The notes under the pieces are model-generated. The model was not told the origin of the DNA and searched no databases. It saw only the letters and a program-made list of their open reading frames with translations. The translations under genes and the position numbers were made by a program. A stretch of DNA of 46,537 nt from a virus: the IMG/VR virus record IMGVR_UViG_3300007609_000038, positions 1 through 46,537 of that record; one strand, given 5' to 3'. Below are positions 26,068 through 42,843 of this stretch, piece after piece; positions within the stretch are counted from its first letter, which is position 1, and every line of letters starts with the position of its first letter.

Positions 26068-26984
26068 TGGCAATAGGCGGAGATATATCAGCACTTGATT
26101 ATAATACCGTTAGGGAAAAAATTGATGAAGTATTAGGTATCGGTGCAGGAACTTTCGGGTATGGACAGACATTGCAAAGTTCTCCTGTCTTTTCTGGCGA
26201 TATTGTTACTAAGACCCAATGGGATAATTTGAGATTTGATATTTTTAATGCAAGAGTTCATCAAGTCGGGCAGTCTCCTAACTTAATAATATTAAGTGAT
26301 GAACAACTAATTGATGATAAAGCAAACGATCCTGTAGTAAATTATAATAATCAAGCAGATATTTGTGCTTTAGACAGATTGAGAGTCGATCCAACTCAAG
26401 CAATAATTTCGGCAATTGGCACCGGTAATCTTTCGGTACCTGGACAATATGATTATACAAGCTCTTGGTCCAGCAATTTAACTATCGAATTAACCTGTAC
26501 TTTCAATGATGCTAATGATGCTAGATTTTTCTTTAATTCAGGAGGCAAAATACAAATTACCCCATCGTTACGAGGTTATACAGATACTGCACAGACAAGA
26601 AACTGGAATTCGTTACTAGATCAAACAGGAACCCAGGAATTCGGAGCTAATACAGATCCTAGTGTAAATTTTTATTCATTAACTGACAACTATTTGACAT
26701 TTTATATTGCATCAGGTAGTGCATCCTATACCTCTAATACAATAAAAATGGAGGCAAAAACAAATGTTGCTGATAACAGCCAAGGAACAGCAAATATAGT
26801 ATACATAAGAATTACATTGACTGATAACTATATAGATCTAGGTTTACCTGAACCAGGCGACGAAATCGACGGCACGACTAGAATCGAGTTCGCTGAATTT
26901 AAAGCATCTGGAGAGTTACAACCAACTGGACTGTTTTCTATCACAAGTCCTTTTTATGCTGTTAGTTCTTTTTCAGCAAGCTAA
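26067..26984 (+). CDS. Virion-associated structural protein with FFNSGGKI core, short paralog
   Basis: A protein of 305 residues whose ATG overlaps the previous TAA by one base (TAATG), implying translational coupling. The N-terminal 75 residues (ISALDYNTVREKIDEVLG, GTFGYGQ, SSPVFSGD) are clearly paralogous to the start of the next gene, as is the core around FFNSGGKI (about residue 154) and a YLTFYIASG segment. I do not know its exact function. Its place after the fibre genes and the beta-rich composition, without membrane segments or enzyme motifs, point to a virion or fibre accessory protein. The gene ends near 26984, followed by 31 bases holding only a weak GGTAAATA sequence before the next ATG. 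Confidence 0.65.
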   Translation: MAIGGDISALDYNTVREKIDEVLGIGAGTFGYGQTLQSSPVFSGDIVTKTQWDNLRFDIFNARVHQVGQSPNLIILSDEQLIDDKANDPVVNYNNQADICALDRLRVDPTQAIISAIGTGNLSVPGQYDYTSSWSSNLTIELTCTFNDANDARFFFNSGGKIQITPSLRGYTDTAQTRNWNSLLDQTGTQEFGANTDPSVNFYSLTDNYLTFYIASGSASYTSNTIKMEAKTNVADNSQGTANIVYIRITLTDNYIDLGLPEPGDEIDGTTRIEFAEFKASGELQPTGLFSITSPFYAVSSFSAS

Positions 26985-27015: not shown

Positions 27016-29163
27016 ATGGCAGGAACTGGATTATCTATTACAGCAGCAGATTACAATGATCTACAAAGTGATGTTGAAGAATTATTAGGAACATCTGATA
27101 CTGGAACTTTTGGATACGGACAAATTGTAAGAAGTTCACCTGTAGACACAGACGACAAAGTTACTATTAACGAATATAATAACTTACGAACAGATCTTCT
27201 TAATATTGCTTTTCATCAAACAGGATCTTTACCTAGTGATACTGTAGGCTCTGGTAATTTAGTCACAGTTAATGTTGGCGAAAAAATAGAATTCGACGTT
27301 ACAGACGACCCATTTAATCAATACGTAAACAATGCTGCAACTTATAGATCTAACAGATTTGACGTATTTTCAGGAAATACACGCACTGTAAACTTAGTTG
27401 ATGAAGCTAATCCTATAGAAAGAAATTGGGATCCAGCTATAGGTGATTATTGGAAATACGGAATTGAATGCACAGTCACAGTATCGTTCAATAGTGCTGT
27501 AGAAGCTAGGCATTTTTTTAACAGTGGCGGCAAGATTCGATTTTCTAGTAGACGAAAGGAAGGTACTACAACCGGAGGTACCAGCACAATACGACGACAG
27601 AACGAAAATTGGTCAGCTCTTTTACAATCGACTGTTGCTAACAGAGATTTTGGCGGAAATACTCCAGGAACAGGAACTTCTCCGTTAAACGGTTTGAACT
27701 ATTACAGACTTACAGACTCGTTTGTGGTTGCTTTTGCTAACGTATCAGCATCTGGTGATTATTCAGCCAACAACTTCCAAATATTTGCTAGATCTCCAGG
27801 AATATCTAATAACAGTTCCGGCACGGCTCGCGATATAGAATTTAGAATTAGATGGATAGATTCACACACAGAAAATTCATTAACTGCTCCAGACGGTGTA
27901 GATGGAAAAATTGAACTTTTTGTCAACTCCGTAGAACCTGTACAGTCTTTATTGCCTTTCGGAAATTGGACATTGTCAACGCCTACTATTTCTAGCCAAA
28001 CAGAAATAACAAATATCAGTTTGTTGGGTTCGCTTACCCAGGTAACTTTAGATTCTAACATAGACGGAGGGGGATATGTTTTAGATACAAGCGATGCCAT
28101 CACTGTTATAGGCGCAGAGTTAGCAGATGATGACCGTACTAATGCAGGAATGGCATTGATATATGATAATTTCACAGGCACAAAACTTACAGAGTTGTAT
28201 GACCCTAATATCGATAATGTAGCCTTTGTAAATAGTTCGACTAACGTATCCGGTTGGCGAACACTTTCGACACAGCATCGTTTTGGCCAGCGTGTAGCAG
28301 TATCGGATAATTATATTGCTATATCGTCAGACGGCGGCGGATTTGGAAGAGTTCACCTTTACAGCGCAACCACTAGAAATTATCTGAGAACAATAGACGG
28401 ACAGGCTGGCAGTTCATCATTTGCATCCGACCTGGCATTGTCTAACAGCTATCTGGCCGTAGCAGATCGTCAAAGGTCCGGCGGCGGCGCAGTTGAACTA
28501 TATAACCCTGCAAATGGAAATTTAATTAGAACAATTAGTAATCCTAATAATACAGCATTGGATACTTTTGGCTATGGTTTAGACATTACATCAACTAGAT
28601 TGATTGTCGGGGCCCCTAGAACAGATTTAAACGGTGTTAATTCGGGAACGGTATATTGTTTTAATTTATCTAATGGTAGTCTTGTTTACAGTATCAATAA
28701 TCCAGCAACTGCAACTCCAGCAGACGATAGATACGGACGTAGTTTAGCGGCAAATGAAGAATATTTTGTAGTAGGAGCATGGAACGCCGCTTCTGGCGGA
28801 AGGGCTTACATACATGATTTAGCCACTGGAGACTTACTACACACATTAGTGAATCCTAATGCAACTGGATCAAGCTCAGGAGATGAATTTGGCAGACACG
28901 TAGCTATAGGAGATAGATATTGTGCGGTCAGTGCAGCAAACGAAGATGTAGGCGGCGGGGCAACAGGAACTGTTTATTTGTTCAGCCTTCTTACAGGAGA
29001 TCTCATACGCACACTCAACAATCCAGATCCGACAGCTATCGACAGTTTCGGTAGTAGTCTGGCAATGTCGAATGAATATATAGCCATTCTAAAAACTACT
29101 TCAAGTACTGATCTATATATTGAACGTACTGTAGAATTAGGACCATCGTTCGACTCAGAATAA
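27016..29163 (+). CDS. Structural protein, long paralog fused to a beta-propeller
   Basis: A protein of 715 residues. Residues 1-310 parallel the preceding 305-residue protein (ITAADYNDLQSDVEELLG, GTFGYGQIVRSSPVDTDD, HQTGSLP, FFNSGGKIRF near 165). From about residue 335 to 700 it carries FG-GAP-like blades: FGQRVAVSDNYIAISSDGG, FASDLALSNSYLAVAD, FGYGLDITSTRLIVGAPR, YGRSLAANEEYFVVGAW, FGRHVAIGDRYCAVSAA and FGSSLAMSNEYIAIL, with strand pairs GxVYCFNLSNGSLVYSI between them. An earlier, less regular blade (SDAITVIGAELADDD) would make seven, the common propeller number. Propellers of this class bind ligands or protein partners; a receptor- or partner-binding role in the virion is inference. Upstream, GGTAAATA lies 5 bases before the ATG, a poor late-promoter match. 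Confidence 0.7.
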   Translation: MAGTGLSITAADYNDLQSDVEELLGTSDTGTFGYGQIVRSSPVDTDDKVTINEYNNLRTDLLNIAFHQTGSLPSDTVGSGNLVTVNVGEKIEFDVTDDPFNQYVNNAATYRSNRFDVFSGNTRTVNLVDEANPIERNWDPAIGDYWKYGIECTVTVSFNSAVEARHFFNSGGKIRFSSRRKEGTTTGGTSTIRRQNENWSALLQSTVANRDFGGNTPGTGTSPLNGLNYYRLTDSFVVAFANVSASGDYSANNFQIFARSPGISNNSSGTARDIEFRIRWIDSHTENSLTAPDGVDGKIELFVNSVEPVQSLLPFGNWTLSTPTISSQTEITNISLLGSLTQVTLDSNIDGGGYVLDTSDAITVIGAELADDDRTNAGMALIYDNFTGTKLTELYDPNIDNVAFVNSSTNVSGWRTLSTQHRFGQRVAVSDNYIAISSDGGGFGRVHLYSATTRNYLRTIDGQAGSSSFASDLALSNSYLAVADRQRSGGGAVELYNPANGNLIRTISNPNNTALDTFGYGLDITSTRLIVGAPRTDLNGVNSGTVYCFNLSNGSLVYSINNPATATPADDRYGRSLAANEEYFVVGAWNAASGGRAYIHDLATGDLLHTLVNPNATGSSSGDEFGRHVAIGDRYCAVSAANEDVGGGATGTVYLFSLLTGDLIRTLNNPDPTAIDSFGSSLAMSNEYIAILKTTSSTDLYIERTVELGPSFDSE
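28030..29110 (+). repeat. FG-GAP-like beta-propeller blades at the C-terminus of the 27016 gene
   Basis: Six regular blades, spaced about 45-55 residues apart, begin near nucleotides 28280, 28416, 28566, 28728, 28887 and 29043; a more degenerate one begins near 28030. Each has the pattern (F/Y)G-x2-(L/V)-(A/D)-(I/V/L)-x3-(Y/L)-x-(A/V)-(V/I)-(G/A/S). These are protein-level repeats with low nucleotide identity, so they are old or diversified duplications rather than recent tandem copies. Confidence 0.65.
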
Positions 29164-29184: not shown

Positions 29185-29192
29185 TATAAATA
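29185..29192 (+). promoter_or_regulatory. Late promoter (TATAAATA) opening the glycan cassette
   Basis: An exact T4-type late octamer in the 58-base gap after the fibre/structural genes. It is followed by AAGGGAG (29208-29214) and the ATG at 29222. The octamer also overlaps the 5' arm (29190-29196) of a 7-bp AT-only inverted repeat whose 3' arm (29215-29221) touches the start codon. Confidence 0.75.
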
Positions 29193-29221
29193 ATATGCTA
29201 CTTTTATAAGGGAGATATTAT

Positions 29222-29575
29222 ATGGACGACCGTCTACAGAAAGCACTAGATTTTTCAAATTATCGGCAAACTTTTTCTGTACAAAGAAAGACATTAAAAG
29301 AAAAAATCAATTCTCAGCTAACGTTTGGTTGCAATGGAGGATTATTCAAAATAGATCAGACTTTGATAAATTTTGTAGTAACTTTAGAATCAGCAGGCAG
29401 AACAGAAAACGTTGTTTTACTAGATTCGAATGACAATCCAATTCTCATTGAAAAGCTCATTGAATTTAAAGATGAAATTTTTGATAGATATTTTTCTGCC
29501 ACAAACGAATATTATGAAGAGTACAAGCAGTTAAAATCTAGTAGATCTGTGGAAAAATTAATTAGCTATGAATAA
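29222..29575 (+). CDS. Conserved phage protein of unknown function, first gene of glycan cassette
   Basis: A protein of 117 residues with a strong AAGGGAG ribosome binding site 7 bases before the ATG. The sequence begins MDDRLQKALDFSNYRQTF and contains CNGGLFKIDQTLINFV, ENVVLLDSNDNPILIEKL and an acidic, Tyr-rich tail (FSATNEYYEEYKQLKSSRSVE). I recognise this general type as a small conserved protein of marine T4-like phages located near fibre or glycosyltransferase genes, but no function is known to me. It is predicted alpha/beta, soluble, with no signal peptide. It overlaps the next gene by 8 bases, so the two are probably co-translated. Confidence 0.65.
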   Translation: MDDRLQKALDFSNYRQTFSVQRKTLKEKINSQLTFGCNGGLFKIDQTLINFVVTLESAGRTENVVLLDSNDNPILIEKLIEFKDEIFDRYFSATNEYYEEYKQLKSSRSVEKLISYE

Positions 29576-30428
29576 AGGTATTTTAATTTTTGCCCATAAT
29601 AATAGACAGGTCGATTACTCGCTTATGTCATTAATATCAGGGGGATTAGCTAAAAAACATTTAAACTGTCCGGTTAGTTTAGTTACAGACGAATCAACTG
29701 CTGACTGGATGAAAGAATCTAATATCTACGGTCGTGCGGAATCTGTATTTGATAAAATTATATTGACAGAAAGGCCTGTTTCGAATAATTCTAGAGTTTT
29801 ATATGACGGTGACATAAAAGGAACCGTTAGTTTTAATAATACAAATAGAGATACTGCTTGGAATTTAACTCCTTATGAAAGAACATTATTAATAGATGCA
29901 GATTTTTTCATCCTTTCGAATAATTTAAATGACTACTGGGATCTTGACTCGGATTTACTTTTATCAGAATCTATAAATGATGCTGTATCAGATACAAGAT
30001 TAGGATACCTAGATAAGTATGTTTCCGAAACAGGTGTTAAAATGTATTGGGCAACAGCAATTATGTTTACAAAAAATGAAAAAACTAAAGCATTTTTTGA
30101 TACTGTGAATATGATAAAAGAAAATTACGAAATGTTTGCAGATATTTATAGATTTAATCATTTATTGTATAGGAATGATATTGCATTCAGTATAGCTAAA
30201 CACATATTTGACGGATTTACAGAAATAACTTCATATAATTTACCATCAATATTAACTTTTTCAGATAAAGATATCCTTGAAAAAATTGACGATACTGGAT
30301 TAATATTTTTAGCCAGTGAAAAATTTGATGATAATTATTTTCCTGTTCGGGTAAAAAATCAAGATGTACATATTATGAATAAACAGAGTATCACTAGGAA
30401 CCACGAAAACTTGCTGGAGATTTTATGA
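29568..30428 (+). CDS. GT-A-type glycosyltransferase-like protein
   Basis: A protein of 286 residues. The start MNKGILIFAHNNRQ begins a Rossmann-like beta strand. SLVTDES near residue 37 and RTLLIDADFFIL at 105-115 with D110-A111-D112 match the metal- and nucleotide-sugar-binding DxD of GT-A enzymes. Later, MYWATAIMFTKNEKTKAFFD resembles the acceptor-side segment of GT8-like proteins. There is no signal peptide or transmembrane helix, so it is likely cytoplasmic. It overlaps its upstream neighbour by 8 bases and its downstream neighbour by 4 (ATGA). The fold call is from the DxD and strand pattern; donor sugar and acceptor cannot be read from sequence. Confidence 0.65.
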   Translation: MNKGILIFAHNNRQVDYSLMSLISGGLAKKHLNCPVSLVTDESTADWMKESNIYGRAESVFDKIILTERPVSNNSRVLYDGDIKGTVSFNNTNRDTAWNLTPYERTLLIDADFFILSNNLNDYWDLDSDLLLSESINDAVSDTRLGYLDKYVSETGVKMYWATAIMFTKNEKTKAFFDTVNMIKENYEMFADIYRFNHLLYRNDIAFSIAKHIFDGFTEITSYNLPSILTFSDKDILEKIDDTGLIFLASEKFDDNYFPVRVKNQDVHIMNKQSITRNHENLLEIL

Positions 30429-31264
30429 ATTTTGGATACTTAATTTTTGTTGCCGAACACGAAACTATACCTTACGATAGACTTGCATATGCACTTGCAT
30501 TAAGTATAAAAGCAACTCAAAAACAAGGTTATGATAAAGTTGCGCTTGTTATTGATAAACCAGAAGTTTTGGAAAATTTTAACAGTCCCTGGGTATTCGA
30601 CGAAGTTGTAGAATGGAAGCAAGAATCCGGATGGGATGGAAGATCGTGGATGGATGAACTTAGTCCTTGGGAGTATACGGTTTGTTTAGATTCGGATATG
30701 CTGTTCTTGAGAGATTACAGTCATTGGATAGACTACTTTATAGAAAATTCTGAACTTTATGTTGCCAATAAAGCATATACATATCGTGGAACTGAAATTA
30801 CAAATGATTTTTATAGGAAAACATTTACTGCAAACGGGCTTCCTAATTTATATAGTTTTTATACTTTTTTCAAAAAAGATTCAAATTTAGCTTCGGAATT
30901 TTTTAATTTAGCAAGATTTATTATAAAAAATCCAAACGAATTTTCAAATTCGTTTTTATCAGAATATAAGCCCAATGTGGTAGGAACAGACGAATCGTTT
31001 GCTTTAGCTTCTAAGATTTTAGATATACAAGAAGAAATTGCGTATAATTTAGATTTTCCTAAAGTGGTTCATATGAAAGGCCAAGTGCAAGATTTTCCTT
31101 GGCCTGCGGAGCTTGCGTCAGATCATCTTGGATTTTATTTGGATAAAAATGCTGATTTAAAAATAGGTAATTATCAGCAAGACAACATTGTACATTATGT
31201 TGAAAAGGATAAAATTACATTAGAAACTTTAAATGTACTTGAGGAAAAAATATGGAAGAATTAA
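30425..31264 (+). CDS. GT-A-type glycosyltransferase-like protein
   Basis: A protein of 279 residues; the ATG overlaps the preceding TGA (ATGA) and GGAGA precedes it. The N-terminus MNFGYLIFVAEHETIPYDRLAY, then YDKVALVIDKPE and YTVCLDSDMLFLRD with D89-S90-D91 as a DxD, indicate a nucleotide-sugar transferase fold. A later GTDESFALA places an acidic pair where many GT-A enzymes keep a catalytic or acceptor-binding residue. It is similar in organisation to the preceding gene, so the two are probably distant paralogs. No signal peptide. It overlaps the next gene by 13 bases. The exact family was not assigned. Confidence 0.65.
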   Translation: MNFGYLIFVAEHETIPYDRLAYALALSIKATQKQGYDKVALVIDKPEVLENFNSPWVFDEVVEWKQESGWDGRSWMDELSPWEYTVCLDSDMLFLRDYSHWIDYFIENSELYVANKAYTYRGTEITNDFYRKTFTANGLPNLYSFYTFFKKDSNLASEFFNLARFIIKNPNEFSNSFLSEYKPNVVGTDESFALASKILDIQEEIAYNLDFPKVVHMKGQVQDFPWPAELASDHLGFYLDKNADLKIGNYQQDNIVHYVEKDKITLETLNVLEEKIWKN

Positions 31265-31872
31265 CTGATTTTGATAACATTATTCAAGAATATTTAAAAA
31301 AAGAAATCGTTTACTGTGCAAAATTTAATGTAGATACAGGAAGTGTAAGTCAGTTAGGCCCAAAAAATTCATTTGATCCTGAAGAAACAAATTTAATAGA
31401 AGTTGAGAAAAATACAGCCGAGTTGATTTTATCTGGAGACGTTCCTTTGGGTACCTGTTTTGTTGATGTGGTAACCCAAACATTCGAAATAATTGAAACA
31501 AAAAGTATTACTAAAATAGATGATGTATTACATAGGGTCGTAGATATTAATTGGACAACAATAGATTTCCCAGATGTATATGTTAACTGCAAAGATAATA
31601 AAATCATTGTAGAATTAGCCGAAGAGCTAGGAGGAACATATAAAAATCCAATCGAGTCTAGGCCAAGGCGTAAAGTATTTTGGTCAAACGACACTGTACT
31701 AAGTTTTTTAGTTACAAGTTATAATGATCCGCATATTGTTTATCACGAATTGACTTGTAAATTACAAGATTTACTCCAAGGCCCTGTTCAATTTGATAAT
31801 ATCGAGTACAACAAACAGTGCAGTCTATATACAAGAAGAATGTTTAAAAATTATGTAATGGATTTTGAATGA
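31252..31872 (+). CDS. Unknown protein in glycan cassette
   Basis: A protein of 206 residues; GAGG sits 7 bases before the ATG, inside the end of the preceding gene. The sequence is soluble and acidic at its N-terminus (MEELTDFDNIIQEYL). It has a beta-rich middle (YVNCKDNKIIVELAEELGG) and an apparent C-terminal alpha/beta part (VFWSNDTVLSFLVTSYNDPH). No motif of a known enzyme family was recognised. It sits between two glycosyltransferase-like genes with overlapping ends on both sides (13 and 4 bases), so it is almost certainly co-expressed with them and may be a partner or substrate protein; that is inference from context only. Confidence 0.6.
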   Translation: MEELTDFDNIIQEYLKKEIVYCAKFNVDTGSVSQLGPKNSFDPEETNLIEVEKNTAELILSGDVPLGTCFVDVVTQTFEIIETKSITKIDDVLHRVVDINWTTIDFPDVYVNCKDNKIIVELAEELGGTYKNPIESRPRRKVFWSNDTVLSFLVTSYNDPHIVYHELTCKLQDLLQGPVQFDNIEYNKQCSLYTRRMFKNYVMDFE

Positions 31873-32768
31873 AAATATTAGAACTTGATATTGTTTTTAT
31901 TAGTTATGATGAACCGAATGCCGAAGAAAATTATGCAGATCTTTGTAACAAAGTTCCTTGGGCACAGCGCATTCACGGAGTAAAAGGCAGCGATGCAGCG
32001 CACAAAGCTGCGGCAAATCTTGCAGAAACTGATTGGTTTATAACAATTGATGCTGATAATATTGTGCGTACAGATTTCTTTAATCTGGATTTAAGTATGG
32101 ACAATCCTAATATTCAGGTTTATGGTTGGTGTGGTAGAAATAATATCAATGGGCTTCGTTACGGTAACGGTGGTCCTAAAATTTGGAAAAAAGATTTTGT
32201 AAAAAATATGAAAACTCACGAAGCTGCTGAAACAAAAAATGCGCAGGTAGATTTTTGCTGGGAAGACGGTTATAAAAATCATCCAAAAACGTACAGCGAT
32301 AGCATAATAAACACAACTCCATTCCAGGCTTGGAGAGCAGGATTTCGCGAAGGCGTCAAAATGACGTTACTTAATGGTGTTAAAGTGCCGCCGCAAGAAA
32401 TAGAAAAACATATCTGGTGGCATAACATTCATAGACTCCGAATGTGGTCTACTGTAGGTTCTCATATTGAAAACGGAATATACTCAATTTTAGGCGCCCG
32501 CCAGGGAACATATATGACAAATTGTACAGATTGGGATTATGTACAAGTTAGAGATTTTGAATATTTAAGAAACCTATTTAACGAAACAGTAAAAGATTTG
32601 ACCGAATCTGATGTAAAAGACTCAATTATCGATTTAGGAAAAAAAATTAGATACGGTCTAGGTTTAAATTGGCCCTGGCTCGATGTCGACAGCAGTAAAT
32701 ATACCTCAGATTTGTACGAGGAGACACTCAATCTTGGAGCAACATATTATAGTTTAAGCCATGTATGA
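31869..32768 (+). CDS. Glycosyltransferase-like protein (single domain)
   Basis: A protein of 299 residues; the ATG overlaps the preceding TGA (ATGA). The N-terminus LDIVFISYDEPNAEENY, then RIHGVKGSDAAHKAA and WFITIDADNIV with D61-A62-D63, is the arrangement of GT2-like GT-A domains: donor strand, a helix following the G-x-x-x-A-x-x-x-A turn, then DxD. Further conserved-looking segments are YGNGGPKIWKKDF, PFQAWRAGFREGVKM and the C-terminal RLRMWSTVG. The next gene repeats this whole domain, so the pair arose by tandem duplication. It is cytoplasmic by absence of signal or membrane segments. Donor and acceptor are unknown. Confidence 0.65.
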   Translation: MKILELDIVFISYDEPNAEENYADLCNKVPWAQRIHGVKGSDAAHKAAANLAETDWFITIDADNIVRTDFFNLDLSMDNPNIQVYGWCGRNNINGLRYGNGGPKIWKKDFVKNMKTHEAAETKNAQVDFCWEDGYKNHPKTYSDSIINTTPFQAWRAGFREGVKMTLLNGVKVPPQEIEKHIWWHNIHRLRMWSTVGSHIENGIYSILGARQGTYMTNCTDWDYVQVRDFEYLRNLFNETVKDLTESDVKDSIIDLGKKIRYGLGLNWPWLDVDSSKYTSDLYEETLNLGATYYSLSHV

Positions 32769-33804
32769 TATTTTCTTTATTGGCCCTGAGACAGATCACT
32801 GGCATAAGTTTAAAACATTCTATCCTAATGCGATAAGAATCGATTCAGTATTATCATGGCAGGATATACAAAGCAAGTCCTTTACCAAAATGTTTTGGGT
32901 TATCTGGGACGATATAGAATTTAATTATTCTTTAAATTTAAGTGACTATCGTGCTTCGAAGTGGGATGATAAGTATGTCCATATCTTTAAAAATGATAAC
33001 ACATTTAACGGTGTGTGTTTGTTTCCTAAGAATTTAAATCCTAGTAACCGAGAATTTTCTAGAAGATTTTTCATACAGCGTAAAGAAGTAGATAAAGTTT
33101 TAAGCACTCCTAAATATCAAGACACTGCGTTTGATGTAGTTTTTATAAGTTATGACGAATCGAACGCAGACGAAAATTTTGCAATACTTAAACAAAAGGT
33201 TCCAAACGCAAAGAGGATACACGGAGTTAATGGTATACATAATGCTCATATTGAGGCAGCAAAAATAGCAAATTCCAGTATGTTTTATGTTGTTGACGGC
33301 GACGCTGTTATTGAAGATACATTTGAATTTAACAAGAATATAAGTGAGTTCGAAAGAGACACTGTATATGTATGGCGCAGTAAAAATCCAATAAATGACC
33401 TAGAGTATGGCTACGGCGGAGTAAAATTATTACCTACCAAGTATACTCTAATGTTGGATAAAAATACTACAGATATGTCAACTAGTATAAGTGGCAAATT
33501 TAAACCGATGCCCGATATATCCAACTTAAGCCAGTTTAATACTGATCCTTTTAGTACTTGGAAATCAGCATTTAGAGAATGTGCTAAATTAGCAAGTAAA
33601 GCAATCGATAGACAGGAAAATAATGAAACTAATAAAAGACTAGAAATCTGGACTACCGTAGGACACAATAGACCTTTTGGCGAATATTCAATTAAAGGTG
33701 CCAGGGCTGGCAAGGAGTTTGGCCTTTCTAACAAGACTGATATATTATTAATAAACGATTTTAGTTGGTTAAGGAAAAAATTTGAGGACACTTGTGGACG
33801 ATAA
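32761..33804 (+). CDS. Glycosyltransferase-like protein with extra N-terminal domain, tandem paralog
   Basis: A protein of 347 residues, overlapping the previous gene by 8 bases. Residues about 122-345 repeat the preceding protein segment by segment: DVVFISYDESNADENF, RIHGVNGIHNAHIEAA, FYVVDGDAVI (D179-G180-D181 as DxD), YGYGGVKLLPT, FSTWKSAFRECAKL and RLEIWTTVG. Residues 1-115 are absent from the paralog (IFFIGPETDHWHKF, MFWVIWDDIEFNYS, KYVHIFKNDNTFNG) and look like a second alpha/beta domain of unknown role. The C-terminal end overlaps the start of the radical SAM gene by 11 bases, since the stop TAA is at 33802-33804. Confidence 0.65.
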   Translation: MYDIFFIGPETDHWHKFKTFYPNAIRIDSVLSWQDIQSKSFTKMFWVIWDDIEFNYSLNLSDYRASKWDDKYVHIFKNDNTFNGVCLFPKNLNPSNREFSRRFFIQRKEVDKVLSTPKYQDTAFDVVFISYDESNADENFAILKQKVPNAKRIHGVNGIHNAHIEAAKIANSSMFYVVDGDAVIEDTFEFNKNISEFERDTVYVWRSKNPINDLEYGYGGVKLLPTKYTLMLDKNTTDMSTSISGKFKPMPDISNLSQFNTDPFSTWKSAFRECAKLASKAIDRQENNETNKRLEIWTTVGHNRPFGEYSIKGARAGKEFGLSNKTDILLINDFSWLRKKFEDTCGR

Positions 33805-35158
33805 ACAACGAATAGAAAAATTCATACCGATGATGGATGAACTAAGTCCTACTTTTTGTATGGCTAAATGGCATCATACAACGATCTATCTACAAACTGG
33901 CGAAACTCATAGTTGTTATCATCCTGCTCCCCATAAAATTCCTTTAGATGAACTAAAAGATAACCCTAGTGCTTTGCATAACACCTCCCAGAAAAAAGAA
34001 GAAAGACGCCAGATGATAAACGGCGAAAAACCTAGCGGATGCCAGTATTGTTGGAATATTGAATGTTTAGGCAAAGATTATATTTCCGATCGTAAAGAAA
34101 GAAATGCTAGTATATACACGCCTGAACGATTTGATTTTATAAAACAAAATCCTTTTGCAGATGTTAATCCGCAATATATTGAAGTTAGTTTTGGTAACGA
34201 ATGCAATTTTAAATGTGGATATTGTCATCCTAAACATTCTAGTTCATATTATAAAGAAATAAAAGATCACGGCCCTTATCATATGGTTCGCAATCACCGT
34301 AACGATATAGATTGGTTCGAAATTTATGAAGAAGAAACAAATCCTTATGTTGATGCATTTTGGAAATGGTGGCCAGCTGTAAGTAAAACGCTTACAATTT
34401 TACGTATCACAGGAGGCGAGCCTCTGCTACAACAAAGTACGTGGAAGCTATTCAGCGAACTTGAAAAAAATCCTATGCCCCAATTAGAGTTGAATATTAA
34501 TTCCAATTTTGGAGTTAAGCCGGTCCTGATTGATCGATTGATTGAAAAAGTTAATAAACTTGTTGAAAACAACTGTATAAAAGACTTTAAAATTTTTACA
34601 AGCATTGATACATGGGGAGAACGTGCCGAGTATATAAGAACTGGGCTAGATATTAATTTGTGGGAACGTAATCTAGACAATTATCTTACTAATACTAATT
34701 TACCTGTAACATTTATGATTACATTTAATATATTAACAGTTACTAGTTTTACAACGCTATTAGATAAAATTTTAGAATGGCGGAAAAAATATAATAAATC
34801 TGATCAAAATAAATGGCAAAGGATTCGTTTTGATACGCCGTATCTCAAAGAGCCACTTCAGTACGATATGAATATTTTACCAAAAAACGAATTTATGCCC
34901 TATATGTACAATAATTTAAAATTTATCAAAGACAACTTAGATGATAAGGATAGAACTAAATTTTCAGAAATCGAGTATGAAAAATTTTTACGTGTAGTAA
35001 AATATATGGAAACTACCAATTATGATACTGATAAATTAATAGAAGGGCGTAAAGATTTTGCAAATTGGTTTAACGAAATAGATAAGAGAAGAAAAACTAA
35101 TTTTTTAAAAACTTTTCCTGAAATGGAAGAGTTTTTCTTTGACTGTATTACCAGCTAA
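33794..35158 (+). CDS. N-twitch domain radical SAM protein
   Basis: The frame could open at a TTG at 33782, but the GTG at 33794 has GAGG seven bases upstream and gives MDDKQRIEKFIPMMDELSP (454 residues), so I use it. Radical SAM cluster: C137-N-F-K-C141-G-Y-C144, the CxxxCxxC triad, preceded by YIEVSFGNE; RITGGEPLLQ near 210 is the SAM-binding GGE motif. Before the core, C22, C41 (in SCYHP), C83 and C86 (GCQYCW) form the Cys pattern of a twitch auxiliary iron-sulfur site placed N-terminally, as in the family called twitch domain-containing radical SAM proteins. Such enzymes start radical chemistry on peptides or sugars; the substrate is unknown. It ends the plus-strand glycan cassette and overlaps the convergent next gene by 4 bases. 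Its context suggests sugar or protein modification. Confidence 0.8.
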   Translation: MDDKQRIEKFIPMMDELSPTFCMAKWHHTTIYLQTGETHSCYHPAPHKIPLDELKDNPSALHNTSQKKEERRQMINGEKPSGCQYCWNIECLGKDYISDRKERNASIYTPERFDFIKQNPFADVNPQYIEVSFGNECNFKCGYCHPKHSSSYYKEIKDHGPYHMVRNHRNDIDWFEIYEEETNPYVDAFWKWWPAVSKTLTILRITGGEPLLQQSTWKLFSELEKNPMPQLELNINSNFGVKPVLIDRLIEKVNKLVENNCIKDFKIFTSIDTWGERAEYIRTGLDINLWERNLDNYLTNTNLPVTFMITFNILTVTSFTTLLDKILEWRKKYNKSDQNKWQRIRFDTPYLKEPLQYDMNILPKNEFMPYMYNNLKFIKDNLDDKDRTKFSEIEYEKFLRVVKYMETTNYDTDKLIEGRKDFANWFNEIDKRRKTNFLKTFPEMEEFFFDCITS

Positions 35159-36303
35159 ACTTTATTTAAATTTAAAAAAACTTTTCTATTGTAATTCAAA
35201 GTAGGGATCATTTCCTGATAGATTTCTTGTAGTTCATTAAATGAGAGATTTCCGATCTTCTCTATAAGATCTAATATAAGGTACATTCGTTTTTGATGAT
35301 CTGTTTCCTGGTCGTAGCTTTCTTCCCACCATTTATTAAACGTTTTGAAGCCTAGTGATTTTATGTATTCTAATGTATATGGAGGTCCTACTATGATAAA
35401 TGGAATTCGATTATCAATTGCTCGTAAAGTCTTTTCACTTATGTTAGGAAACGGCTGAAAATATCTAGTTTCATTAATAATTGCACAGAAAGATTCGGTA
35501 TAGTTTTCTCTGGGAATATCGTTGTGCCATGCATCGCCGTCTGGGTGGAAAGATATATCGGTATTATCAATATCTACCTTTCCTTTTTTGTCAAATACTG
35601 TATTTGGCGTGTTGAGGTTGCGAAAACCTGTTATGAGTTTTTCCTTTACAACTTCATTTTTTATATCATCGAGGTTAAAGAAATTATTACTTTTTATGGT
35701 GCCTATACTACAATTGTAATACCAACTAAAGTTAGAATCAAAATTTGAAACATATGCAGTTGTAAAGTGTCTATGTAATGCGTATCTCCAATTGGAACAA
35801 AAAAATTTTTTATTAATTTCTTTTTTATCGATATTAACATCGCCTACCGGATCGTTTGATATTTCGCGTAAGAAAATATCATAGCACTCTATTTGTAATT
35901 TAGGATATTGCAATTCTAATATTTTGCTATTGTATTCGCAAGTTTTTACAATTATATTCAAATTATATTTTTTTTGAAATCGTGATATACTATCTAATTC
36001 TGTTGATTTTATCTTTAGAATATCAGTATCAGAGCTAAATTCACTAAAGTAATGTCTGTTCAATCTCTTTGTGTAAAAAGATTGAGGCTCGTAAAGATAA
36101 ATTGTAATTGTCTTTTTAGATAATTTATTTATGGTTTTGGAATAGAATGATGGAAACTTAATTGTTCCAGTACCAGTCCATATGAAGCAAGGATTTTTAT
36201 TATTTGCAATTTCTGATATTGCCGTATACGGAAATTTAAGAGTATTTGCTACTCTTTTTTTTGATATTGGGATATTTTTATAATATAATTTTTGTTCAAA
36301 CAC
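35155..36303 (-). CDS. SEKT-motif family protein A, putative glycosyltransferase-like, unknown
   Basis: A protein of 382 residues with a GTG start at 36303, one base after the TAA of the gene upstream; no clear Shine-Dalgarno sequence, so coupling is likely. Near residues 285-350 it carries a C-terminal motif shared with two other genes here: ISEKTLRAIDNRIPFIIVGP, then LGFKTFNKWWEESYD. The pattern (SEKT, about 10 residues, PF-I/V-I-x-G, LGFK-T/L-F/Y, W, Y/F-D) is one I associate with marine phage proteins encoded near sugar genes. It loosely recalls the donor-binding end of GT-B transferases such as fucosyltransferases, but I cannot name the family with confidence. The N-terminal half (KKTITIYLYEPQSFY) is divergent. 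It converges on the radical SAM gene with a 4-base overlap and no hairpin terminator. Confidence 0.6.
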   Translation of the reverse strand: MFEQKLYYKNIPISKKRVANTLKFPYTAISEIANNKNPCFIWTGTGTIKFPSFYSKTINKLSKKTITIYLYEPQSFYTKRLNRHYFSEFSSDTDILKIKSTELDSISRFQKKYNLNIIVKTCEYNSKILELQYPKLQIECYDIFLREISNDPVGDVNIDKKEINKKFFCSNWRYALHRHFTTAYVSNFDSNFSWYYNCSIGTIKSNNFFNLDDIKNEVVKEKLITGFRNLNTPNTVFDKKGKVDIDNTDISFHPDGDAWHNDIPRENYTESFCAIINETRYFQPFPNISEKTLRAIDNRIPFIIVGPPYTLEYIKSLGFKTFNKWWEESYDQETDHQKRMYLILDLIEKIGNLSFNELQEIYQEMIPTLNYNRKVFLNLNKV

Positions 36304-36304
36304 G

Positions 36305-37168
36305 TTAGTTTAGTATATCTTGATGTCTGCTACTATTCCTGAGTTTAAACTGCTGACGAATACCATCCTGCCATTTCTGATCAAACTCGTATAATCCTGT
36401 GTTTTTTGTTACGGTATCGTATTTTTTCCTCAAATAGGTTATAAGACTATTTTGAGTCTTTTTTACAGAACTAATAGTCTTTGAATTGAATTCATAATCG
36501 AATGTTTTTTGTAAATATGCTAAATGTTCCATAGGAAGCGGATGCCCGTCTGAAAAGTATTTATGAACAATGTTCCAGTCGCTTTCCCATTTATTTTGTA
36601 AATTATTATTCCAAAGAGTCTCATAAAAACTAGGACTTATTTTTTTTAAGCAATGACCATAGTTATGACTCAAATTAGAAATATTTGATTCTGCTTTTTC
36701 TTCTGCCCATTGATCGATTGTTGTTGAAATATTGCACATTGACAAGAAATGGTACTGTGTTTTGTTTGCCAGATATTGATCTACTAAAGATATTGTAGAA
36801 TAATCTCTTAATGCAAAGTGAGTATCGTTTGCCCATTTTTTTACAAATGTAGAATCATATTCATTTTGTGTATATATGTTTCCTGGAGTAAGCCAACCGT
36901 TTCTAGATTCTAAAAATCGGTCTTCTCGGCTGATGTTAGTCCACGAAATTAAAACAAGATCGTCCTTCTTAAATTTATAAAAATTATCTACTTGAGTCAC
37001 CATATTTGCAATATAGCTATTGCCTGCACCTGACTTTCCGTAATTGTAGAATTCACTTTTTTTAAATTCGTGTCCTAAAATATTTGCCCAGGTACCCCAA
37101 ATATAATCTGTAAAACTGCAACCAAACGTAAAAATTCTTTTAGGAGCAATGTTGTATAACTTTTCCAT
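36305..37168 (-). CDS. SGNH/GDSL-type hydrolase-like protein
   Basis: A protein of 287 residues with AGAGGG ahead of its ATG, which directly follows the TAA of the gene upstream. RIFTFGCSFTD puts Ser18 in the block I nucleophile position (G-C-S-F-T in place of GDSL); GKSGAGNSYIA at 45-55 supplies the block II Gly and block III Asn; SDGHPLPMEH near 206-215 provides the block V Asp207-His209 region. Family members are esterases, acyltransferases or sugar O-acetyl-modifying enzymes. Between two SEKT-family genes, a role in acylating or deacylating a glycan is plausible, but this is inference. No signal peptide is seen, so it acts inside the cell or on assembling virions. Confidence 0.7.
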   Translation of the reverse strand: MEKLYNIAPKRIFTFGCSFTDYIWGTWANILGHEFKKSEFYNYGKSGAGNSYIANMVTQVDNFYKFKKDDLVLISWTNISREDRFLESRNGWLTPGNIYTQNEYDSTFVKKWANDTHFALRDYSTISLVDQYLANKTQYHFLSMCNISTTIDQWAEEKAESNISNLSHNYGHCLKKISPSFYETLWNNNLQNKWESDWNIVHKYFSDGHPLPMEHLAYLQKTFDYEFNSKTISSVKKTQNSLITYLRKKYDTVTKNTGLYEFDQKWQDGIRQQFKLRNSSRHQDILN

Positions 37169-38371
37169 TTATTTCCCTCTTAGTGTTCTAAAAAGTTTTT
37201 CAAAGTTTTTCTTGTCGTATTGTTTATCTAATATTAGACTAGCATTGTGCAATAATACGTCTGGATTTTGAAACCTCCATTCGATTTGTTCGCTTCTTGG
37301 CAATGTTTTAATTTTATTGTAACTATTCGACAAAGATTCTAACAATTTTTTATATCTTAATATAGGATCTGGTTCGTTGTCAAAATCATAATCTATCCAG
37401 TCGGTGTATAATTTAAAACCTAATTTTTCTAAATATCTATTACATCCCTGTTGCCCATAAATTACAAACGGATGAAAGTGTATCATAGATCTAAAAGTTT
37501 TTTCAGAATAGAATAAACTGGTATTCCTAAAATTATCAACGTGTGTTTCATTTACTATTTGAAATAACGTATCGTAATGCAACTGAGAATTTATGCTTAA
37601 AGCATGGTTGGTCTTAAAATCGTCGGTATCTACAGTAAGGGGTAAATTTTCTATCCATTTTCTTACTAGTAAATGGTGTATTCCTGTTTTTTTAGAAATT
37701 GTGTGTATAGTAGCAAGTTTATCGTCATTATGAATACAGTCGTGGCTTATATTCGCAACCTTCCCCAATTGATGATGACTTAGCAGACAAGTGGCTGCTG
37801 ATCTGTATTGGCGATTTACCCTGCTTAAACTTAATAAAAATTTTCCTTTATATGTTTTATCAATTTGTTTTTTCATAAAAGAATAATGCTTTTTCAACGA
37901 CTTTTTACTATAAGAAATTTCATATAGATCATTAATCATTCTTCTAAAACTTAAAAAAGGAAAAACATTAACACTCGTTTTAATTTTGTGTTTTTTATTA
38001 TATGTTTTTATATTCAAATTATCTTTTAAATTTGCAGAGGTAAAAATAATTTTGTTTGCTGGAATATTATATTTTTCACAGTTAGAATACAAAATGTCAA
38101 AGAAATATGTTCCTTGAAATGGGCTAAATCCCTCTGTGCTTGCATCAAAAACAAAAAAACATAAAGTATTTTCTCTAATTTGATCTAAAGTCGATTTATT
38201 CAAATACTGAAATATATCGATATCAGCAGACCATTCTGGATATTTGATTAATGCTAGAACAAAGGACATATTCTTATGACGATCGTGATCATTGAACAAT
38301 ACTGAAAATGTTGTACTGTCGCATTCTTGTATATACGGATTGTCTGAGATAACTTCTTTGAAAATTTTCAT
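37169..38371 (-). CDS. SEKT-motif family protein B, unknown
   Basis: A protein of 400 residues; the ATG at 38371 lies 6 bases downstream of a minus-strand TATAAATA and has no evident Shine-Dalgarno sequence. The C-terminal motif near residues 285-350 (YSEKTFRSMIHFHPFVIYGQ, LEKLGFKLYTDWIDYDFD) pairs it with the genes at 35155 and 38397. The N-terminal half contains ECDSTTFSVLFNDHDRHKN, LCFFVFDASTEGFSPFQG and FLLSLSRVNRQYRSAATCLL. The last resembles the stretch before the donor site in some GT-B-type proteins, where a LLS-x-NR-x2-R-x-H/A pattern is common. It is soluble, basic and Lys/Asn-rich. Function unknown; a glycosyltransferase-like role is inferred from motif and neighbours. Confidence 0.6.
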   Translation of the reverse strand: MKIFKEVISDNPYIQECDSTTFSVLFNDHDRHKNMSFVLALIKYPEWSADIDIFQYLNKSTLDQIRENTLCFFVFDASTEGFSPFQGTYFFDILYSNCEKYNIPANKIIFTSANLKDNLNIKTYNKKHKIKTSVNVFPFLSFRRMINDLYEISYSKKSLKKHYSFMKKQIDKTYKGKFLLSLSRVNRQYRSAATCLLSHHQLGKVANISHDCIHNDDKLATIHTISKKTGIHHLLVRKWIENLPLTVDTDDFKTNHALSINSQLHYDTLFQIVNETHVDNFRNTSLFYSEKTFRSMIHFHPFVIYGQQGCNRYLEKLGFKLYTDWIDYDFDNEPDPILRYKKLLESLSNSYNKIKTLPRSEQIEWRFQNPDVLLHNASLILDKQYDKKNFEKLFRTLRGK

Positions 38372-38377
38372 GTAGTC

Positions 38378-38385
38378 TATTTATA
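38378..38385 (-). promoter_or_regulatory. Late promoter (TATAAATA, minus strand) in a 25-base divergent gap
   Basis: An exact late octamer on the minus strand. Only 6 bases separate it from the ATG at 38371. With the T4 element centred at -10, the transcript would begin at or next to the start codon, so the mRNA would be leaderless. It would drive the minus-strand trio 38371 to 35155. Confidence 0.65.
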
Positions 38386-38396
38386 AGGTAAATATT

Positions 38397-39422
38397 TTGA
38401 AAATTAAATATTTGGTATATATGTCGCGTGATTGTAAAATTTTTTATTTTTTGATATGGAAAGATACTCCAGATGATTATAGGCGGAAAATAAAAAAAGC
38501 TAAAAAGATTTTGTGTGATAAAAAGAACATAAAAATAATTTTCTGCGCGGCAGAAGAATGGGAATACACTGCCGAAATGAAAAAATTTCCTTTGACAAGC
38601 TCTAAATATTTAAGTAAAGATATTATAATTGGACACGTAAAAAATAACTCGATGTCTCTACCTAAAGATTTTAATATCCACCTCTGGAAAAATTCTTGGT
38701 TATTTATTACAGCATCTATTTTCGACGATAACTTTTTATCCACTGATTATAAAAATATAGATAAATTGTTTATATCGTTGAATAATAAAGATCATTATTG
38801 GAGATGTTTAATGATCGATAATCTTAGTAAAAAGAATTTATTAGAAAAATCCTATTATTCTTGGCGAAAAGACGGAGGCGATAGAAATAATTATTCTTTT
38901 AAATACTGGGACGAACAGGTTATATTGCTTCCTAGCGAAAGAAAGAATTTTAATAATGAGCAGCTTGACAGCATCCCTCAAGAGTTTTCTAAAGCGGTCT
39001 TTCATATAGTTTGTGAATCTACAGTTAGTGATCGATTAATTGATATTTCGGAAAAAACATGGAAATGTATATTATCGGCACAACCTTTTATAATTTTAGG
39101 AAATCCGGGAGTACATCAACAATTAGAAGACTGGGGATTCAAATTATATCGAGAAATATTTGCTTATGATTTTGATAAGATACCAGAAGTAAAAGATAGG
39201 GTTGAGTCTATAGTAGAACAGATTGCTAATATAGATAGTCAGCATAGCCCGGAAGGCTATACTACTCTTAAAATGAAATTGCAAGAAACTGCAAATTACA
39301 ATCAACAAAGAGCTTTTCAGATGATAAAGAATAAAGAAATGATTCCACAAATAGTGTTAGATACTGATTATTATACACAAATTATTATCGATGCAGAACA
39401 AAATATAGGTGATATTATATGA
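38397..39422 (+). CDS. SEKT-motif family protein C, unknown
   Basis: A protein of 341 residues from a TTG at 38397, supported by AAGG at 38385-38388 with an 8-base spacer; an in-frame ATG at 38421 lacks any such site. The motif near residues 215-280 (ISEKTWKCILSAQPFIILGN, LEDWGFKLYREIFAYDFD) makes it the third member of the family in this window, on the opposite strand to the other two. Upstream, KLFISLNNKDHYWRCLMIDNL corresponds to the LLSLSRVNRQYRSA region of family member B, again suggesting a related two-domain fold. The N-terminus is shorter than in A and B. It ends in ATGA overlap with the nucleotide-sugar dehydrogenase gene, which suggests a shared pathway. Confidence 0.6.
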   Translation: MKIKYLVYMSRDCKIFYFLIWKDTPDDYRRKIKKAKKILCDKKNIKIIFCAAEEWEYTAEMKKFPLTSSKYLSKDIIIGHVKNNSMSLPKDFNIHLWKNSWLFITASIFDDNFLSTDYKNIDKLFISLNNKDHYWRCLMIDNLSKKNLLEKSYYSWRKDGGDRNNYSFKYWDEQVILLPSERKNFNNEQLDSIPQEFSKAVFHIVCESTVSDRLIDISEKTWKCILSAQPFIILGNPGVHQQLEDWGFKLYREIFAYDFDKIPEVKDRVESIVEQIANIDSQHSPEGYTTLKMKLQETANYNQQRAFQMIKNKEMIPQIVLDTDYYTQIIIDAEQNIGDII

Positions 39423-40639
39423 ATATAGGTTTTATTGGTTTAGGTAAATTAGGAATGCCTTGCGCTGAAGCCATTGCCAGACACGAGCATAGTGTATTCG
39501 GATATGATGTAGCAGAAGTATCAAGTGATATTGTTAAAATTGTAGATAGTATTGAAAAATTAGTTTTAGATAAAGACATTGTATTTGTTGCTGTTCCTAC
39601 ACCTCACGATCCAGATTATGATGGCAGTGAACCAACAGCACACTTAGAACCAAAAGATTTTAGTTATGATATTGTAGAGCAAGTTATATCGGAAGCAAAC
39701 AGATATATGAATAAAAATCAGTTACTTGTTCTTATTTCGACTGTGTTACCTGGGACAACACGCAGACAGTTTGTTGATTTAGTAACTAACACTAGATTTG
39801 TGTACAATCCCTATCTTATCGCTATGGGTAGTGTTGCTTGGGATATGGTTAATCCTGAAATGGTTATGATTGGTACAGAAGACGGAACTGAAACAGGTGA
39901 TGCCAAACAACTTGTTGAATTTTATAAAACTATAATGGAAAACGATCCCCGTTACGTTGTAGGCACTTGGGATGAGTGCGAGTGCATTAAAGTATTTTAC
40001 AATACCTTTATCAGTGCTAAAATAGGTCTTGTTAATATGATACAAGACGTAGCAGTACAACAGGGCAATATTAATGTAGATGTCGTTACAGACGCTTTAG
40101 CGCAGTCTACGATGCGTATTATGGGCCCTCAGTATATGAAGGCAGGTATGGGAGACGGTGGAGCCTGTCACCCTAGAGATAACATTGCGCTACGCTATAT
40201 GGCTCAAGAATTAAATCTAGGATATGACTTATTTGACAGTATTATGTCTGCAAGAGAAATTCAAGCTGAAAATCTTGCTATGTTTCTTGTAGATATTGCC
40301 AACGAAAAGAATATGCCTATTTTCATTCATGGTAAGGCATATAAACCAGGAGTTCCCTACACGGATGGTAGTTATAGTTTATTGGTCGGACACTATTGTG
40401 AGTATCACGGATTCTCTCCGACCTATGTAGATCCGCATACTGGTGATACATTATATCCAGACGAGCCTTGTGTAATGTTAATGGCACATTCTGCCAGCAC
40501 AACTTATGAATATACTGGTAAAGAAAACAAGGATGAAATTTATTGTAGCATTCCTGCAGGAAGTGTAATTGTTGATCCATGGAGGAAGATTGAATCGAGT
40601 GTAAGCACAGTAATTTGGTATGGAAATTCAAGATGTTAA
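39419..40639 (+). CDS. UDP-glucose/GDP-mannose 6-dehydrogenase-like protein
   Basis: A protein of 406 residues; the ATG overlaps the previous TGA (ATGA). GFIGLGKLGMP at 4-13 is the N-terminal NAD-binding GxGxxG; STVLPGTT at 107-114 matches the family STVxPGTT; E-C-I-K191-V-F-Y-N195-T-F-I-S-A-K200 is the central helix with the active-site Lys and Asn; Cys250 in GDGGACHPRD is the catalytic cysteine, normally G-G-x-C-F/L-P-K-D. The C-terminal domain includes FIHGKAYKPGVPYTDGS. The family oxidises a UDP- or GDP-hexose twice to the uronic acid in the cytoplasm. The CHPRD variant keeps the Cys but replaces the usual Phe and Lys, so the donor may differ. It is sandwiched between a SEKT gene and an SGNH gene, consistent with supplying an activated sugar acid. 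Confidence 0.8.
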   Translation: MNIGFIGLGKLGMPCAEAIARHEHSVFGYDVAEVSSDIVKIVDSIEKLVLDKDIVFVAVPTPHDPDYDGSEPTAHLEPKDFSYDIVEQVISEANRYMNKNQLLVLISTVLPGTTRRQFVDLVTNTRFVYNPYLIAMGSVAWDMVNPEMVMIGTEDGTETGDAKQLVEFYKTIMENDPRYVVGTWDECECIKVFYNTFISAKIGLVNMIQDVAVQQGNINVDVVTDALAQSTMRIMGPQYMKAGMGDGGACHPRDNIALRYMAQELNLGYDLFDSIMSAREIQAENLAMFLVDIANEKNMPIFIHGKAYKPGVPYTDGSYSLLVGHYCEYHGFSPTYVDPHTGDTLYPDEPCVMLMAHSASTTYEYTGKENKDEIYCSIPAGSVIVDPWRKIESSVSTVIWYGNSRC

Positions 40640-41415
40640 GATTCGAATCAAACAATTTACTTATAGACTTTGAAAATCAAGACAAGTCGAGAAACTGGTA
40701 TTGCACAGACTCTAAAAAAAATGCAATTTATAAAGACAATATCGAGTATAATTTTAATAGTTTAGGATACAGAACAAAAGAAATACAAGATCTAGATAAA
40801 GATTTTATATTAACTACCGGATGCAGCTATACCGAAGGCGTCGGGTTACCCCAGCATAAAATTTGGTGTAATACATTAGCAGATAAATTAGATTTGGATC
40901 TATTTAACATAGGAAAATCAGCTACCGGCCCTGATATAGTTTATTTAAACACTATTCAATATATTTTGTGTAATTTTCCTAAACCTAAACTTGTGGTAAT
41001 CCAGTGGCCAAACAATACTAGGAAAAGTTTTGGATATAAAGATACAGAAAATACAGTGCGATTAACAGATCGGAATATAGGAAGCAGTTTTTTTGATAGT
41101 TTGTGTTTTAACAAATTTGAGACTATGGATACAAAGTGGTATGAAAATAGATATATAGCAGAAGACGGCGAAACAACAATAAACAATTACACACACTATT
41201 GTGTTACTAATTTACTGTGGAAAACTCACGGAGTGCCAGTTTTTAATTGGACCTGGTCAGGCGATTTTGAACCAACGCACGTTTTTAACGATCTTTATAT
41301 TCATAATAACCAGAATAACGATTATGCGAGAGATGGGCAACACGACGGTCCTTTAATTCATCAAGAAGTAGCAGAAACTTTATATAACAAATTAAAAAAT
41401 ATTATTAGTATTTAA
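40633..41415 (+). CDS. SGNH/GDSL-type hydrolase-like protein, second copy
   Basis: The frame runs back to a TTG at 40615, but the ATG at 40633, inside the end of the dehydrogenase gene (7-base overlap), gives MLRFESNNLLIDFENQDKS (260 residues) and is preferred. FILTTGCSYTEGVG places Ser65 in block I (G-C-S-Y-T); GKSATGPD near 95-102 may fill block II; DGQHDGP near 234-240 gives the block V Asp234-x-x-His237. It shares the fold type with the 36305 gene but little sequence beyond these blocks. An acyl or acetyl ester chemistry on the glycan is inferred. It converges with the 41392 gene, overlapping by 24 bases, with no GC-rich terminator hairpin visible. Confidence 0.65.
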   Translation: MLRFESNNLLIDFENQDKSRNWYCTDSKKNAIYKDNIEYNFNSLGYRTKEIQDLDKDFILTTGCSYTEGVGLPQHKIWCNTLADKLDLDLFNIGKSATGPDIVYLNTIQYILCNFPKPKLVVIQWPNNTRKSFGYKDTENTVRLTDRNIGSSFFDSLCFNKFETMDTKWYENRYIAEDGETTINNYTHYCVTNLLWKTHGVPVFNWTWSGDFEPTHVFNDLYIHNNQNNDYARDGQHDGPLIHQEVAETLYNKLKNIISI

Positions 41416-42561: not shown

Positions 42562-42831
42562 TTAATTTCTCCTTATATCTGGACACGCTAACATAAAATA
42601 TGTCATTTCTTTTTCTTCTTCAAAACCCACATATACCTCGGATTTTAAAGAATCATTTTTAGTTATACTAGGTATTGCAGTTATACAATATCTTCCGCTT
42701 AATTTAGACTGAATCCATTCCTCGATGTAGTGCATTGCAAACGGCTCTATTCTCATCTTAGTGTAATGAGGAGGCATATAATTTAATTTCCTAACACCTA
42801 GTATTTCGAGTTGATTAAGTTCTATTTCCAT
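42562..42831 (-). CDS. Small phage protein, unknown, behind a late promoter
   Basis: A protein of 89 residues. The ATG at 42831 is only four bases from a minus-strand TATAAATA and lacks a Shine-Dalgarno sequence. The sequence (MEIELNQLEILGVRKLNY, KMRIEPFAMHYIEEWIQSKL) suggests a small alpha/beta protein. I do not recognise a function. If transcription begins as in T4, the start codon would be at the very 5' end of the message. Confidence 0.6.
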   Translation of the reverse strand: MEIELNQLEILGVRKLNYMPPHYTKMRIEPFAMHYIEEWIQSKLSGRYCITAIPSITKNDSLKSEVYVGFEEEKEMTYFMLACPDIRRN

Positions 42832-42835
42832 AAAT

Positions 42836-42843
42836 TATTTATA
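42836..42843 (-). promoter_or_regulatory. Late promoter (TATAAATA, minus strand), 4 bases before the ATG
   Basis: An exact octamer in the 32-base gap between the 42864 and 42562 genes. The very short distance to the ATG at 42831 means that the +1 expected from an element centred at -10 would fall on or just inside the start codon. Confidence 0.6.

Follow-up and report, generated by a model that had tools for sequence, protein, structure and literature searches.

Cassettes of sugar-modifying genes in phages are already known as a kind. The gtrABC serotype conversion operons, which lie near tailspike genes in some temperate phages, are phage sugar genes too. To our knowledge, few reports describe glycosylation of the tail fibres of tailed phages. 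In mycobacteriophages, glycans have been observed on capsid and tail-tube subunits (Freeman et al., 2023, via PMC12619734), and a 2025 paper on aquatic moraphages describes four core orthogroups as putative glycosyltransferases, with no gene order, target, partner gene or promoter stated (PMC12619734). Here we analyse a sugar-gene locus in a 46.5-kb IMG/VR virus record, IMGVR_UViG_3300007609_000038 (the whole of this stretch is hereafter called the window), which comes from an uncultured, aquatic, giant-type phage and reads, by its sequence, as part of a T4-type myovirus. An earlier note on this DNA had described a single late-promoter-linked cassette beside the fibre genes and proposed that it decorates virions. 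We find that the locus contains a constant core of six genes (h, GTa, GTb, x, GTc and GTd) that is inherited together with a fibre-type gene, 26067, and that may glycosylate the proteins of the 26067 family (A26067).

The locus shares features with each of several described systems. As in the mycobacteriophages, so far as PMC12619734 reports them, glycosyltransferases are encoded by the phage and a particle protein is the proposed acceptor; unlike in that report, the candidate acceptor here is a fibre-tip protein, and four DxD enzymes stand with h and x in an operon that co-transfers with the acceptor gene. The moraphages, likewise large, T4-like and aquatic, conserve four putative glycosyltransferases (PMC12619734), and their orthogroups, compared by description only, may be the same genes as GTa to GTd. 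PA5oct and Paride (Arenbergviridae) have the same series of a giant structural protein gene, a gp17000-like gene, two fibre paralogues and an A26067 homologue, gp360, but, unlike the window, neither a glycosyltransferase core nor an island after gp360. HTVC008M and Bellamy carry a related UDP-sugar dehydrogenase (48.5% and 60% identity, respectively; gp227 in Bellamy) among glycosyltransferase genes; its neighbours there include carbamoyltransferase, NadE and methyltransferase genes, with epimerases in Bellamy, and, unlike in the window, no fibre genes are annotated near it. The gtrABC operons differ in that the window's system has no membrane flippase or polytopic glycosyltransferase. Neither joint transfer of such a cassette with one fibre-type gene nor a switch of its promoter was found reported in the literature.

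A constant core inherited with a fibre-type gene

All of the genes named in the earlier note were found where it had placed them, and the gene set is real; what had been taken for one cassette is better described as two units, a constant core (29222–33804) and a facultative island (33782–41415; Table 1). The genes h and x, which had been overlooked, belong to the core, and the equally overlooked fibre-type gene 26067 belongs with the core as part of the same unit. The order h-GTa-GTb-x-GTc-GTd is unchanged in relatives; in most of clade B, the sister clade of the window's own clade A, x has diverged beyond the reach of the profile.

In all 59 dereplicated relatives, the gene immediately before h is a member of the A26067 family, which bears out the earlier claim that the sugar enzymes are linked to particle genes; in the window itself the paralogue 27016 sits between 26067 and h. 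An initial result, the presence of GTc and GTd in 80 of 80 first relatives, was discarded because those loci had been fetched with GTc, and two sets independent of the core were examined, namely loci retrieved through fibre gene 24202 and loci retrieved through the right flank. Of the 64 fibre-fetched loci that reach 3 kb past the fibres, 62 have four or more core genes (near-duplicates included). The right-flank-fetched loci revealed a third lineage with the same fibres beside the same flank and neither 26067 nor the core; the 57 dereplicated rows of this core-less lineage form one clade (support 100/99). Whole-contig searches found 26067, h and GTc all absent from 11 contigs of 125–328 kb, and both 26067 and h present in six others (G001–G006), which had been fetched with their core.

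One contig separates the pair from the remaining fibres. The contig G010 (353 kb) lacks a core next to its own fibres (~172–193 kb); at ~11–29 kb, ~150 kb away from those fibres, it carries the full 26067-h-GTa-GTb-x-GTc-GTd series (23–29 kb), then radical SAM genes. By its flank gene it falls within the core-less clade, and by its GTc in clade B; judged from these placements, G010 records a second, horizontal event, in which A26067 and the core moved together and were re-acquired. The order 26067-h-GTa-GTb-x-GTc is also kept in far more distant phage-like contigs within metagenome-assembled genomes (MAGs).

That 26067 is a particle protein is suggested by its homology to PA5oct gp360. With 26067, tblastn found only PA5oct-like Pseudomonas phages (E 0.2–0.8); the A26067 family profile matches gp360 at E 8e-39 within the same gene order, the 27016 family profile likewise matches gp360, and the PA5oct record carries an electrospray ionisation tandem mass spectrometry (ESI-MS/MS) note on gp360 and most of its upstream neighbours. 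At the fibre-flank site of the core-less lineage, a thymidylate-synthase-like gene was seen by eye (L162 13246–14172; L318 10609–11990), with a DHFR-like neighbour in L318.

The four DxD glycosyltransferase-like proteins of the earlier note are GTa, GTb, GTc and GTd. Among the diverse homologues aligned (23, 24, 25 and 18, respectively), none has lost either aspartate of the motif, and a C-terminal histidine is likewise kept in the homologues of GTa and GTb. Family models are weakly consistent with GT8-like GTa and GTb and GT2-like GTc and GTd, with sub-threshold matches of single members to PF01501 (GT8, 0.003) and PF13641 (GT2, 8e-4), sub-threshold matches of three members to PF13704 (best 0.019), and a match of the GTa profile to glycogenin at 0.059. 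The core families show no transmembrane segments apart from isolated outliers, and a type conversion operon that works through a membrane carrier was rejected on this ground. For x there was no significant fold match, and Pfam searches with its family gave scattered weak matches only; the h family gave only weak, inconsistent matches against PHROGs. Within the limits used, tblastn with h, GTb, GTc, the radical SAM enzyme and SEKT 37169 found no match in 50,697 phage records. Close bacterial homologues of GTc sit in phage-like contigs inside MAGs, and the remaining ones, from Actinobacteria and Parvibaculum, are 24–33% identical.

Promoters of the core operon

The exact octamer TATAAATA occurs five times in the window, below the 10 expected by shuffling, and the count by itself is meaningless as evidence. 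The reading of the octamer at 29185 as a late-type promoter is upheld by conservation: NTAAATAN stands at -45 to -25 of h in 36 of 38 dereplicated clade A loci and in none of the 199 regions upstream of the internal genes GTa, GTb, x, GTc and GTd (p 1e-40). Taking all 60 h loci together, 13 carry the exact octamer. In clade A, NTAAATAN also precedes fibre 24202 (27/29) and m43255 (12/12). The core operon in the window is probably late. The second octamer that the earlier note had attached to the cassette, at 38378, lies on the minus strand and hence does not serve the plus-strand genes at 38397–41415; in relatives, AATAAATA is found ~33 nt before the minus-strand gene for SEKT 37169. A search with PF04542 found no late sigma factor in eight contigs, although gp55 may not match that model, and no TAAATA was found within 300 bp upstream of gp23 in five genomes, so that this gene gives no positive control for the late motif. 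Elsewhere in the window, at 42831–42843 on the minus strand, TATAAATA stands 4 nt before the apparent start of the gene at 42562–42831, and the octamer is close to the start of this gene in 27 of 63 relatives; either the true start codon lies downstream of the apparent one or the transcript has almost no leader.

In clade B, h is preceded by a promoter of the TTGACA-17-TATAAT type in 16 of 19 loci, as against 1 of 85 internal genes (p 6e-15), and fibre 24202 retains the late-type motif (15/16). A dyad, AGTGTA..TACA(C/T)T, overlaps the -10 element of this h promoter and in nearly all loci occurs nowhere else within ~20 kb, suggesting an operator; an example upstream of h is AGTGTA..TACACT at L142 13921–13938. 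A few loci carry both late-type and sigma-70-type elements before h. In the one genome inspected per clade (G004, 170–186 kb; G001, 2–8 kb), strict sigma-70 promoters are gathered at one end of the contig, in a stretch of mostly short genes that would be the early region. As far as motifs can tell, the promoter class of the core operon is switched between relatives. The earlier step from late expression to a virion target does not survive this result, since with a promoter class that varies between sister clades lateness is no evidence for the target; the reasoning is corrected accordingly, and a virion target is better argued from co-transfer with a virion gene.

The facultative island

The island ends at a minus-strand flank, m41392, that is conserved in relatives. 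The gap that separates GTd from this flank, examined in 52 dereplicated loci, is ~600–680 bp in most of clade B and reaches 7.9 kb; short-gap clade B loci gave no matches to island genes with the profiles used, and at the upper end the gap holds one to five copies of the radical SAM gene together with a varying complement of SEKT, SGNH and nucleotide-sugar 6-dehydrogenase (UGD) genes. By the transferred core of G010 (L352 919–13459, ~11–23 kb of the contig) there is a long run of radical-SAM-like genes, with copies far exceeding those of the window.

The N-twitch radical SAM enzyme matches NF033640 at 327.6 bits (cut-off 170), and the UGD matches PF00984 (60 bits) and PF03721 (59.8 bits) above their curated cut-offs, in agreement with the earlier note; the UGD stays below the stricter TIGR03026 cut-off (145.6 vs 189.8). 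The two genes described as SGNH hydrolases are present, their SGNH label coming from the motif. All three SEKT-family proteins (35155, 37169 and 38397) are present as well, with no match to known families and none to Pfam GT10. A structural model of SEKT 37169 (predicted local distance difference test score, pLDDT, 87; predicted template modelling score, pTM, 0.87) has as its best VIA match the Helicobacter pylori alpha1,3-fucosyltransferase (GT10; Z 11.4, 266 residues, 4.5 A), with which the T4 alpha-glucosyltransferase ties (Z 10.6); WaaG is also among its structural matches. The SEKT proteins are accordingly predicted to be GT-B glycosyltransferases, one from its model and the others by family, and their invariant SEK motif resembles the donor-site motif of GT10. 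The locus would then encode up to seven glycosyltransferases plus tailoring enzymes. The SEKT37169-SGNH36305-SEKT35155 operon has the same order on the opposite strand in most relatives; an inversion switch was considered and rejected, there being no convincing inverted repeats at the operon ends.

Table 1. Features of the core, its partner genes, the island and the associated octamers in the window
Feature	Position	Strand	Description
26067	26067..26984	+	Fibre-type virion protein family A26067; candidate acceptor and partner of the core
27016	27016..29163	+	Second A26067-type protein; FG-GAP (beta-propeller) repeats, PF14312 E 2e-24
TATAAATA octamer	29185..29192	+	Late-type promoter before the core operon, 29 nt before h start
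h	29222..29575	+	117-aa conserved protein, first core gene; 71% mean column identity
GTa	29568..30428	+	GT-A-type glycosyltransferase, GT8/glycogenin-like; invariant D110, D112, H268
GTb	30425..31264	+	GT-A-type glycosyltransferase candidate; invariant D89, D91, H216
x	31252..31872	+	206-aa beta-rich protein; AlphaFold2 pLDDT 87, pTM 0.62
GTc	31869..32768	+	GT2-like glycosyltransferase candidate; invariant D61, D63; PF13704 0.043
GTd	32761..33804	+	GTc paralogue with N-terminal extension; invariant D179, D181
N-twitch radical SAM enzyme	33782..35158	+	First island gene; NF033640; 1–5 copies or none in relatives
SEKT protein	35155..36303	-	GT-B glycosyltransferase predicted from family membership; aligns with 37169, the modelled protein; E and K invariant
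SGNH-type hydrolase or acyltransferase candidate	36305..37168	-	Motif only
SEKT protein	37169..38371	-	GT-B glycosyltransferase by predicted structure, pLDDT 87
TATAAATA octamer	38378..38385	-	6 nt before SEKT 37169
SEKT protein	38397..39422	+	Predicted GT-B by family; present in few relatives
Nucleotide-sugar 6-dehydrogenase (UGD)	39419..40639	+	PF00984 and PF03721 over cut-off
SGNH-type hydrolase or acyltransferase candidate	40615..41415	+	Motif only; last island gene, converges on constant minus-strand flank

Source genomes

The baseplate wedge protein of the window is nearest to those of Atu_ph07, RaK2-like and PA5oct phages. The gp23 capsid gene was found in six long relatives (E 1e-79 to 1e-100), and the tail-sheath model PF04984 had no match in six contigs. 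A 4607-aa reading frame at 3208–17031 of the window is placed as is the giant virion structural protein gene of PA5oct, and a 5'-3' exonuclease gene (PF02739, E 2e-20) lies at 44308–45300 within the constant minus-strand flank. Contigs with these fibre and core genes also occur in bacterial MAGs (L356–L362; Neomarinimicrobiota, 335 kb, Rickettsiales, Gammaproteobacteria and Rhodobacteraceae), and these look like misbinned phage genomes.

Proposed function and alternative explanations

We tentatively favour, at somewhat less than even likelihood, glycosylation of the A26067-family fibre-tip proteins, here 26067 and 27016, as the function of the core. The core would be a cytoplasmic, carrier-independent protein-glycosylation unit with the co-inherited A26067 family as its substrate: before assembly, its soluble GT-A enzymes would start a short glycan on A26067 proteins and then lengthen it, and h and x would act in substrate recognition or folding. 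The island, where present, would alter the glycan, the UGD oxidising a nucleotide sugar, the SEKT GT-B enzymes adding residues, and the radical SAM and SGNH enzymes tailoring sugar or acyl groups. With soluble GT-A-type enzymes, no membrane carrier enzymes and a particle-protein gene that is inseparable from the core, cytoplasmic glycosylation of 26067-family proteins is the best-supported explanation, and the late-type promoter of clade A is in keeping with it; the identity of the acceptor, any glycan, what h and x do, and a benefit in shielding, receptor specificity or stability are inferred. It is possible, though doubtful, that the whole is a transferable 'decorated adhesin' module, in which a fibre-tip gene and its dedicated glycosylation operon would move as one, independent of the other fibres, with switching between late and host sigma-70 promoters and a swappable island that diversifies the tip glycan. 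Several points tell against glycosylation of A26067. The absence of A26067 and the core maps to one clade, which leaves few independent events; the fragment G007 has A26067 domains without the core, and PA5oct and Paride have their homologue without it, so that a 26067 homologue can manage without the core, which is the main limit; the core stands under a sigma-70-type promoter in clade B; and enzymes that modify the receptor would likewise be expected to be linked to a receptor-binding protein.

This last point makes modification of the host receptor the main rival. The cassette would alter the host cell-surface glycan recognised by A26067, to exclude superinfection or to free progeny from infected cells and debris, and would travel with A26067 because a receptor-binding protein and receptor-masking enzymes must match. 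Such a role, which we consider unlikely at present, would equally entail linkage to one adhesin gene, and the clade B promoter is what early host-acting genes would be expected to have; soluble lipopolysaccharide glycosyltransferases exist, as the WaaG match to SEKT 37169 recalls, and the related UGD of HTVC008M and Bellamy lies among sugar genes away from fibres. It is opposed by the lack of a flippase or membrane-bound carrier glycosyltransferase and by the late-type promoter in the window's clade. Less probable again is some other product, whether a peptide, a cofactor, a free polysaccharide or modified virion proteins other than A26067, with the A26067 link due to hitch-hiking or to a common site of insertion. 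Between the fibres and m41690 this site does take other cargo, namely thymidylate synthase in the core-less lineage, and radical SAM families of this type carry no assigned substrate; against this, A26067 and the full core order are kept away from the site, in G010 and in the distant phage contigs. Glucosylation of modified bases of the phage DNA is named in the moraphage paper as one option for the core glycosyltransferases (PMC12619734), and the SEKT model aligns with the T4 alpha-glucosyltransferase as well as with its best match, but many genomes keep the core without SEKT genes, the core enzymes are GT-A-like and the fibre linkage does not fit, so that we regard DNA hypermodification as very improbable.

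Implications

Comparative genomics thus points to a single family, that of 26067, as candidate acceptor and reduces the gene set to a minimum of six. If glycosylation of A26067 is the true function, these phages would have an adhesin with its own sugar coat that moves together with the enzymes that make it, which would bear on host range and on the shielding of the particle.

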